From Psychroserpens ponticola (GTDB taxonomy: Bacteria; Bacteroidota; Bacteroidia; Flavobacteriales; Flavobacteriaceae), in assembly GCF_023556315.2 (NCBI RefSeq), contig NZ_CP116221.1, forward strand, positions 3,734,001-3,798,000: a stretch of 64,000 bases of DNA, read 5' to 3'. Below are positions 54,496 to 57,239 of the stretch, piece after piece (the first letter of the stretch is position 1; each line of letters opens with the position of its first letter). The notes beneath the pieces were generated by a model. The model worked only from the letters and a program-made list of their open reading frames with translations, was not told where the DNA came from and searched no databases. The position numbers and the translations under genes are program-made.

Positions 54496-54789
54496 CTAAG
54501 CAACCAAAACAGCAGTTCCTGTGACGGAAACAAAAAAGTAGGATCCACCAACGGTTTCAACATCGACACTAATTCCTACAACCGCATTGGCTTTTAAATG
54601 ACTCGCATTTGTTTGAAGTTTTTGAAAGGCTTGTTCTTTAGCTTCGTTCATTAAATCCTCAATGATTTGCATGTTTTTATCATTTTTGAAGGAAAATTTT
54701 GTTTTGAGCTCCGAAGACGTTCCTGTGACAATACCTTTATAATCTGTTATTTTAAAGCCTTCGATAGTGTTTGTTGTGGTTAGAATCAT
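54496..54789 (-). CDS. YbjQ family protein
   Basis: The 97 aa protein contains YKGIVTGTSSE near residues 18-28, EDLMNEAKEQAFQKLQTNA and ANAVVGISVDVETVG, the conserved pattern of the YbjQ/UPF0145 family. These proteins form small pentamers and were once linked to heavy metals, but their role is unclear. It is full-length. A structured intergenic element lies upstream. Confidence 0.88.
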   Translation of the reverse strand: MILTTTNTIEGFKITDYKGIVTGTSSELKTKFSFKNDKNMQIIEDLMNEAKEQAFQKLQTNASHLKANAVVGISVDVETVGGSYFFVSVTGTAVLVA

Positions 54790-54855: not shown

Positions 54856-54960
54856 GTATCGATTCGCGTTAAGGATAGAAGTGGCATCCTTTTGGTTTTT
54901 TTACCAAAAGATATAACGGATAGCCTGACCTTTAGGTAACGCCATAAAAATTATCGATAC
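54856..54960 (+). ncRNA. Structured intergenic element, candidate ncRNA (Flavo-1-like?)
   Basis: Three nested helices are visible. The outer perfect stem is GTATCGAT (54856-54863) with ATCGATAC (54953-54960). The second is GCGTTA (54866-54871) with TAACGC (54937-54942). An inner perfect hairpin CTTTTGGT/ACCAAAAG has a six-T loop (54889-54910). GGATAG occurs twice (54873 and 54918). I recall near-identical motifs in many flavobacterial intergenic regions, possibly Rfam Flavo-1, but cannot check it. Strand is inferred from that recall. Confidence 0.6.
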
Positions 54961-55001
54961 ATAACAACACATATCGTTGGAACACTCGAACTGACAAAAA
55001 A

Positions 55002-57239
55002 TTATGCTTCTTCGTGCTTACCTATTAAAGTAAAATCAAGATGTTTCTTAACTAAATCGGTGTTTTTAACTTTTACAATAACCTCATCTCCAAGCTGATA
55101 CATTATTTTTGAATTTTTACCAATTAATGCAAAATGGTCTTCATCAAATTGGTAATGATCATCTTTCATGTCTCTAACACTTACCATGCCTTCGCATTTA
55201 TTTTCAATGATTTCGACATAAATTCCCCAATCTGTAACACCAGAAATCACACCAACAAAATTTTCGTTTTTATGATCTTCCATAAAGCGAATTTGCATGT
55301 ATTTGATTGAGTCACGTTCTGCTTTAGTGGCTAGATATTCCATTCGACTAGAATGGTTACATTTTTCTTCGTAAATGTCTGCATTAGCTGAATTTCCACC
55401 ATCGAGATACTGTTGTAATAAACGATGTGCCATGACATCTGGATATCGACGAATTGGTGATGTGAAATGACTGTAATAATCAAATGCTAATCCGTAATGA
55501 CCAATGTTATGTGTTGAATATTCGGCTTTACTCATAGTTCGAATTGTTAAGGTATCAACCAAATTTTGCTCTTTTTTACCATTAACGTCTTTTAATAAAT
55601 TATTCAAGGATGAAGATACACTTTTTCGGTCTTTAAAATTGAGCTTATAACCAAAGCGTCCAACAACATTTTGCAATGCTGCTAATTTACTATCATCAGG
55701 TTCGTCATGAATACGATAGATAAAAGTTTTCTTTTGTTTTCCAATAAATTCACCAACTTTTCTGTTGGCTAATAACATGAATTCTTCAATCAGTTTATTC
55801 GCATCTTTACTTGTTTTAAAGTACACTCCTACTGGATTTGCATCGTCATCTAAATTGAATTTTACTTCCACTTTATCAAAAGAAATCGCACCAGAACTCA
55901 TACGTTTACGACGCATGATTTTTGCGAGTTCGTCTAGTTTTAAAGTCGCTTGAGCAACTTTTTGCGATGTTTTATATTCTTTACCTGTAAGCGACACCTC
56001 TTTAGGAATCGTTAAATCTATCTTATTTGGCTTTTTAAGCACTTCGACTGCGCTCAATGTGGCATTATTTTCTATAATAGCTTGTGCTTCTTCATAAGCA
56101 AATCGCGCATCAGAATAGGTTACTGTTCTTCCGAACCATTGGTCTTTTATTTCTGCTTTCTCATTCATATGAAACACAGCTGAAAACGTATATTTCTCTT
56201 CGTGTGGACGTAATGAACACGCACCATTTGATAAGATTTCTGGAAGCATTGGTACGACTCTATCTACTAAATACACAGACGTTGCACGCTCAAAAGCTTC
56301 GTCATCTAAAATGGTATTTTCTTGTAAATAGTGAGAGACATCTGCAATATGAATTCCGATTTCAAATAAACCATTATCTAAGATTTTAAATGATAAGGCA
56401 TCATCAAAATCTTTAGCATCTTTTGGATCTATGGTAAAGGTTAAATCTTTACGCATATCACGACGTTTTGCGATTTCTTCTTTAGTAATAGACGTATCTA
56501 TTTTATTGGCAAATTCTTCAACTTCGTGAGGAAATTCTAATGGTAAACCATACTCAGCAAGAATGGCGTGAATTTCTGTATTATGTTCTCCAGGTTTACC
56601 TAATACTTTTAAAACTTTTCCGTTTGGAGAATCAGCTTTTTCTGGCCAATCTTCAAGAGAGACAAGAACTTTGTCACCATCTTCTGCTTTGTTAATTTTG
56701 TTAATTGGGACAAAAATATCTTTATACATTTTGTTTCCATCAGGAACGACGAATGCAAAATTCTTTTTCTCATGAATTTGGATGACGCCAACATATTCGC
56801 TTTTTGCACGTTTGATGATGCTTGTAATTTCACCTTCAAGCTTGCCACGTTTTCTACGTTTGTATGCATAAAATTCGACCTCATCTCCATGAAGTGCTTT
56901 ATTCATATTGTTTGAAGCAATGTAAATATCGTCTTCAAAATCGTCGCATATAATATATCCAGATCCTCTAGATGCCATATCGACACGACCTGTGTGATAT
57001 TCGGTATTTACAATGGCTTTAAATTTACCACGATCTACTTCTTCAATCTCTTGTTTTGCTTTGAGTTGATGTAGTTTTTTTATGATTTGATTTCTACTAC
57101 TTGCGTCGTTAACACCAAGTATAGCAGCAATTTGTTTGTAGTTAAATGTTTTGTTTCTGTCTTTTTTTAAAATACTCAGAATAGTATTTGTAAGATTTGG
57201 AATCCCTTTATTGGATTTCTTTTTTTTTCGTTTTGTCAT
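55002..57239 (-). CDS. rnr: Ribonuclease R
   Basis: The 745 aa 3'-5' exoribonuclease has an N-terminal helix-turn-helix-like segment, cold-shock domains with FAFVVPDG and KVLVSLEDWP, and the RNB catalytic core with the four-aspartate motif DPKDAKDFDDALS near residue 265. A HYSHFTSPIRRYPD-like segment (YYSHFTSPIRRYPD) and a C-terminal S1 domain with a lysine-rich end follow. It degrades structured RNAs in quality control. It is a single gene, and the gap upstream contains a palindromic repeat. Confidence 0.96.
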   Translation of the reverse strand: MTKRKKKKSNKGIPNLTNTILSILKKDRNKTFNYKQIAAILGVNDASSRNQIIKKLHQLKAKQEIEEVDRGKFKAIVNTEYHTGRVDMASRGSGYIICDDFEDDIYIASNNMNKALHGDEVEFYAYKRRKRGKLEGEITSIIKRAKSEYVGVIQIHEKKNFAFVVPDGNKMYKDIFVPINKINKAEDGDKVLVSLEDWPEKADSPNGKVLKVLGKPGEHNTEIHAILAEYGLPLEFPHEVEEFANKIDTSITKEEIAKRRDMRKDLTFTIDPKDAKDFDDALSFKILDNGLFEIGIHIADVSHYLQENTILDDEAFERATSVYLVDRVVPMLPEILSNGACSLRPHEEKYTFSAVFHMNEKAEIKDQWFGRTVTYSDARFAYEEAQAIIENNATLSAVEVLKKPNKIDLTIPKEVSLTGKEYKTSQKVAQATLKLDELAKIMRRKRMSSGAISFDKVEVKFNLDDDANPVGVYFKTSKDANKLIEEFMLLANRKVGEFIGKQKKTFIYRIHDEPDDSKLAALQNVVGRFGYKLNFKDRKSVSSSLNNLLKDVNGKKEQNLVDTLTIRTMSKAEYSTHNIGHYGLAFDYYSHFTSPIRRYPDVMAHRLLQQYLDGGNSANADIYEEKCNHSSRMEYLATKAERDSIKYMQIRFMEDHKNENFVGVISGVTDWGIYVEIIENKCEGMVSVRDMKDDHYQFDEDHFALIGKNSKIMYQLGDEVIVKVKNTDLVKKHLDFTLIGKHEEA

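Follow-up and report, generated by a model that had tools for sequence, protein, structure and literature searches.

The intergenic segment between ybjQ and rnr, two genes on the minus strand of the window (the whole 64,000-nucleotide stretch of Psychroserpens ponticola DNA analysed), contains a genuine copy of the catalogued Flavo-1 family. A new observation is that the full unit in this genus is a three-way junction exceeding the Rfam model, with an outer stem lying partly outside it. Comparison across the genus shows that the rnr–ybjQ copy is under purifying selection in some species and lacking in others. Our tentative preference is for a dispersed palindrome of REP type, probably derived from a mobile repeat, that would act as folded DNA, rather than for a promoter-driven small RNA.

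Identification and Distribution of the Element

The Rfam 15 scan matched RF01705 over the full model (1–76 of 76) on the plus strand, well above the cut-off (Table 1), which confirmed the family that an initial sequence-only reading of the segment had named as a possibility. The parts listed by this reading were all present: GTATCGAT is complementary to ATCGATAC, GCGTTA (54866–54871) to TAACGC (54937–54942), the two sides of the 8-bp hairpin (54889–54896 and 54903–54910) flank a T6 loop at 54897–54902, and GGATAG occurs twice, once per arm. It had judged the segment to be strongly structured and such pairing to be unlikely by chance, an observation that was confirmed. The folding energy of the 105 nt was −27.8 kcal/mol (z −3.3), a value matched by one of 200 dinucleotide shuffles; the GTATCGAT...ATCGATAC arrangement had a single occurrence in the window and none in shuffled sequence.

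Table 1. Coordinates of the features in the window.
Feature	Position	Strand	Basis and remarks
ybjQ-like gene	54496–54789	−	Its start and promoter region are turned toward the element's 5′ side
Outermost stem of the sequence-only reading, 5′ side, GTATCGAT	54856–54863	+	Outside the family; missing at the other rnr–ybjQ loci of the genus
Rfam RF01705 Flavo-1 match	54863–54934	+	57.2 bits, gathering score 42
Full Flavo-1 unit, three-way junction, genus-typical form	54866–54942	+	Boundaries from 46 independent loci; covariation
Outer stem, 5′ side, GCGTT	54866–54870	+	Pairs with 54938–54942; covariation in 80 copies
Arm 1, Flavo-1 core	54872–54926	+	Helices interrupted by a mismatch and two internal loops; 122 distinct copies
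Arm 1 mismatch	A54875·G54923	+	Kept in 122/122 distinct copies
Arm 1, first purine-rich 3×3 internal loop	54878–54880 with 54918–54920	+	
Arm 1, second purine-rich 3×3 internal loop	54883–54885 with 54913–54915	+	
Apical hairpin, 8 bp and T6 loop	54889–54910	+	Hypervariable in the family; GGT..ACC retained at rnr–ybjQ
Arm 2, small hairpin ACCT-TT-AGGT	54928–54937	+	In other copies far longer and able to contain other repeats
Outer stem, 3′ side, AACGC	54938–54942	+	Past the end of the Rfam model
Outermost stem of the sequence-only reading, 3′ side, ATCGATAC	54953–54960	+	Not conserved in orthologs
rnr (RNase R)	55002–57239	−	ORF and orthologs; the gene ends toward the element's 3′ side

Flavo-1 RNA was described by Weinberg et al. 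2010 (PMC2864571), has figured among candidate RNAs since that year and carries the type label sRNA in Rfam. Twelve copies in the genome, a single contig of 4.03 Mb, exceeded the cut-off, and a thirteenth scored 39.6 bits. Copies above the cut-off were detected in 35 of 57 relatives, with up to 32 matches per genome; two genomes from another genus of the family showed 38 and 41 matches, and 29 of the 247 genomes of a phylum-wide sample were positive. A set of 133 copies was extracted together with their surroundings, and 128 of them fell outside open frames of 90 amino acids or more. Flavo-1 thus occurs in multiple intergenic copies with a range in Bacteroidota and, among the Flavobacteriia sampled, constitutes a compact, sharply bounded intergenic repeat with up to about 40 copies per genome. 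The phage search gave no Flavo-1 match, and the plasmid search a single weak one (74% identical, Aquimarina). The genes beside the copies of the genome, judged by their sequence, include phoH, obgE, mgtE, rnr, accC and metK, and no common function was seen among them. The window copy shares with the Rfam family the core sequence, the helices, the internal loops, the Bacteroidota range and the many intergenic copies; it differs, as do most copies of the genus, by the additional outer stem and second hairpin, which are missing from the 76-position model.

Variant forms were encountered. Three loci (L013, L065 and L335) combined the usual outer part with another inner arm, which reads GAAGCTCTTTTT..AAAAAGCGACTGC in L013 and L335. 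L013 scored just under the Rfam cut-off; the three may represent an undescribed Flavo-1 subfamily. In genome G045, at loci L103–L109, Flavo-1 was the terminal part of a larger dispersed repeat, about 330 bp long, which opens with the inverted repeat TATAAACACACC..GGTGTGTTTATA.

Other repeats were visible around the element in the window. Between rnr and the element, CACTCGAACTGAC at 54983–54995 corresponded to half of another palindromic repeat, which also occurs in the apical loops of two Flavo-1 copies (L009 and L012). Inside rnr, the palindromic dispersed repeat CTTCGACTGCGCTCA at 56042–56056 was in frame and read as LSAVEV. At this point the rnr orthologs presented a short gap or other repeat-like inserts (SSRAQSRD, VMLSEVEAS), so that it looks like an insertion hotspot in a loop of rnr.

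Structure of the Complete Unit

Across 46 independent loci of the genus, the unit was conserved from TT-GCGTT to AACGC-C(C)AAA, and no conservation was found beyond the TT before it and the CCAAA after it. The compensatory changes which had been predicted for the GCGTTA/TAACGC stem were found. By position, the pairs of the outer stem in 80 copies were GC/CG; CG/TA/GC/AT; GC/AT; TA/CG; and TA/AT/GC, the partner being picked by best pairing, a procedure which biases toward pairing; an alignment of 24 sequences nonetheless agrees. In this alignment, 97.4% of the cells were paired compared to 87.3% after shuffling, double-changed cells numbered 62 compared to 15.7, and covariation reached 0.322 compared to 0.123 (0 of 500 shuffles), the controls with slid partners giving at most 0.091. 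A sixth pair, A54871 with T54937, is possible.

Within arm 1, the G·A pairs were kept in 119/122 and 122/122 distinct copies, and the flanking Watson–Crick pairs covaried. The second hairpin (ACC..GGT), which completes the three-way junction, was the helix with the weakest support (87.9% paired); a second form of the unit, in which an A-rich bulge replaces this hairpin, is common outside the family and in g32, another of its genera. Taken by itself, the sequence of the element has a minimum-energy fold that differs from the conserved one, GGCATCC pairing with GGAT..GCC, and it is the comparison of copies which supports the three-way junction. The fold conserved for the Rfam strand comprises the outer stem, an arm with two G·A-rich 3×3 loops, a free apical stem-loop and, in this genus, a second small hairpin. 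The sequence-only reading had described a single structured unit; the GCGTTA/TAACGC stem and the hairpin indeed belong to a conserved family, while the enclosing GTATCGAT/ATCGATAC stem has to be removed from it. The latter received no support: none of the orthologous copies has it, and it may be a local feature or have arisen by chance.

The apical part varied freely and often contained other palindromic repeats. Nested dispersed palindromic repeats were found in the apical loops of six copies (L005, L007, L009, L012, L174 and L219) and in the second hairpins of three (L005, L130 and L149), which suggests that the loops are unconstrained or attract insertions.

Conservation and Patchy Presence at rnr–ybjQ

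Orthologs of ybjQ were found in 23 of 23 genomes of the genus. The closest matches to the ybjQ of the window were an Algicola MAG (95%) and Psychroserpens species (87–89%). The standard element with the GGT..ACC apical stem was located at rnr–ybjQ in seven species, with pairwise identities of 84–99%. In the same seven species, identity at the fourfold sites of rnr was 38–57%, reaching 76% in the closest pair, and the left flanks of the element failed to align. An element identity so far above that of the rnr fourfold sites, next to unaligned flanks, reflects purifying selection. The gap between the element and the rnr stop codon was only 5–11 nt in six of the seven species.

Among the 24 ybjQ loci of the genus, 11 carried the element, one of them with the variant inner arm, and 13 were devoid of it. 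The same site held the variant arm in Algibacter amylolyticus; apart from this, 76 family-level ybjQ loci gave only one match, from the same genus, so that a broad conservation of the rnr–ybjQ copy outside the genus was rejected. On the Rnr tree, the presence pattern requires about six changes, of which at least four are forced. We read this as an old presence followed by repeated loss; repeated insertion at a favoured site is another possibility. The filled interval of G004 measured 133 nt and the empty intervals of G003 and G006 measured 53 nt, an 80-nt difference. About half of the element-free genomes simply had a short rnr–ybjQ gap, with no obvious replacement. In four related genomes, the Flavo-1-free interval (L056, L057, L064 and L067) was occupied instead by another conserved block, whose inverted repeats read CTTCGGAAA..TTTCCGAAG in most of the four.

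Orientation and Transcription

A marked orientation bias was observed in this lineage. Both neighbours were antisense in 84 of the 133 copies versus 23, and in 46 versus 12 when orthologous loci were counted once. The right-hand gene ended toward the element in 101 of the 133 copies and, among antisense copies, a median of 44 nt separated the 3′ side of the element from the end of this gene. In G045 and in several copies of G037, the T-run of an intrinsic terminator stopped directly at the element. A preference for one replication strand, of the kind expected from ssDNA insertion on the lagging strand, was not found: counts on the lagging and leading strands were 9:4, 14:14 and 20:14 in three genomes, differences that are not significant, with origins estimated from GC skew alone.

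No conserved upstream promoter motif was detected across the flanks of 46 independent loci. The flavobacterial −7 box TAnnTTTG was rarer than expected upstream on the plus strand (4 of 83 antisense copies for 9.1 expected) and commoner on the minus strand (10 of 83 for 3.8 expected), an excess that is expected from the promoter of the neighbouring gene. The situation was different in genus g32, where orientations were without bias (both neighbours sense 10, both antisense 7, divergent 9, convergent 4). Several sense copies of g32 ended 14–22 nt ahead of a start codon, and an upstream TTCTTTTGAAAA block, which could be part of a promoter, was common to 12 of the 30 copies. This lack of bias is consistent with the available text of the F. 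psychrophilum transcriptome study (PMC9723704), according to which Flavo-1 matches lie in sense, in antisense or outside transcripts, with no pattern; the same text (Guerin et al.) reports that several 5′ regions overlap Flavo-1 matches.

Folded Strand and Nature of the Element

The core pairs included 857 Watson–Crick, 17 G-U and 2 A-C pairs. Once one misaligned copy, the source of both A-C pairs and of two G-U pairs, was set aside, the ratio of G-U to A-C was 15 to 0, over 13 independent loci in several gene contexts; it was 12 to 6 in the apical stems and 2 to 3 in the outer stem. Together with the G·A-rich loops, this excess designates the Rfam (plus) strand as the one likely to be folded, with moderate confidence; the copies were retrieved with a model of that strand, which slightly biases the result in the same direction. 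A stable fold was likewise obtained for the minus strand of the window copy (z −4.2). A cis-regulatory RNA leader of ybjQ was considered and rejected, ybjQ being on the minus strand and the wobble and G·A motifs placing the fold on the plus strand.

G-U pairs were scarce in absolute terms, about 2% of the core pairs and 1% of the apical stem pairs (12 versus 1243), compared to 6.6% in 26 tRNAs taken from the same sequences, a rough comparison since base content and constraint differ from those of Flavo-1. From this low share in freely varying pairs, complementarity would seem to be established in the DNA itself, for example through a hairpin DNA intermediate or quasi-palindrome correction.

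Several known DNA elements resemble Flavo-1. Like REP elements it is a short dispersed extragenic palindrome, often located just behind the 3′ end of a gene, folded with defined mismatches and with a free apical part; unlike REP/REPIN, it is longer and branched, has no linked RAYT and is conserved at the same locus across the genus. A link to a RAYT/Y1 transposase was not retained: the gene was lacking from the majority of the genomes of the genus, and Flavo-1 was found at none of 20 transposase loci. In integrons, attC sites are found in arrays downstream of cassette genes. Flavo-1 shares with them a strand-specific fold, a variable terminal loop and a preferred orientation downstream of genes. 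Its GCGTT...AACGC ends, however, are the inverse of the attC core-site layout and its copies are dispersed instead of being in cassette arrays, so that an identity with attC was rejected.

On these grounds a REP-like repeat of folded DNA, kept at gene ends, seems to us somewhat more likely than an sRNA, because of the missing promoter, the antisense placement and the scarcity of G-U pairs. The sequence-only reading had proposed a candidate noncoding RNA; the family is right, and it is the RNA label that is weakened, by these first two observations and by the patternless published transcripts. The opposite view, that Flavo-1 is a true noncoding RNA transcribed from the plus strand into the three-way junction and acting in trans or as a leader for some genes, is possible although doubtful. 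It would account for the wobble bias and conserved G·A loops, both typical of folded RNA, for the strong covariation, for the selection at rnr–ybjQ, for the g32 copies in sense near start codons with their shared TTCTTTTGAAAA block, and for the F. psychrophilum 5′ regions. Of these points, the wobble bias, the G·A loops and the g32 copies, as well as the absence of orientation bias in g32, of a linked transposase and of a replication-strand bias, count against a DNA element, the wobble and G·A argument being softened by the fact that single-stranded DNA tolerates both. The RNA view has to face, in turn, the unalignable left flanks at rnr–ybjQ, the 84 copies antisense to both neighbours, the G-U depletion relative to tRNA, the lack of correlation between strand and transcript in the available F. 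psychrophilum text, and adjoining genes that share no theme.

It is improbable that the functional molecule is the reverse complement, present in the 3′ UTR of rnr-type mRNAs and protecting or terminating the message. The gene ends directed toward the element, the short distances to them, in particular to the rnr stop codon, and the stable minus-strand fold of the window copy are in its favour, but the wobble and sheared-type G·A motifs are on the opposite strand even in antisense copies. Moreover, the separate terminators of G045 and G037 end just ahead of the element, which would then fall outside the message, and about half of the element-free genomes have a short gap with no obvious substitute. 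We consider very improbable a purely selfish, actively moving repeat, which a REP-type or IS200/IS605-type transposase would cut and paste in the form of single-stranded DNA. The near-identical cores held by G045 at separate loci, the patchy occupation of the rnr–ybjQ loci, the 80-nt difference between filled and empty intervals and the differently armed variant at the same site would fit such mobility, but Y1_Tnp genes were missing from most Flavo-1-carrying genomes of the genus and flanked none of the 20 loci tested, plasmids and phages gave almost nothing, and no replication strand was preferred. Purifying selection at a single locus is not expected for a selfish copy, so that the preferred reading, a folded DNA repeat, must include a host function.

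On one side of the element lies the 3′ end of a gene, here rnr, and on the other the promoter of its neighbour, here ybjQ. This gene boundary would be marked or insulated by a putative protein that recognises either a single folded strand or a cruciform. As a more speculative proposal, which we rate as possible and no better, Flavo-1 in general would be a strand-specific folded DNA element and not an RNA gene, forming a three-way junction in this lineage, situated by preference behind gene 3′ ends with the template strand folded, kept by selection at certain gene boundaries and recognised by a putative dedicated binding protein.

Significance

Among the RNA families listed for Bacteroidota, Flavo-1 is a widespread one. 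The present analysis provides its full three-way junction, its boundaries and its probable strand, together with a strongly selected locus open to clean deletion and grounds to doubt the sRNA label. Together, these results make the question of its function testable.
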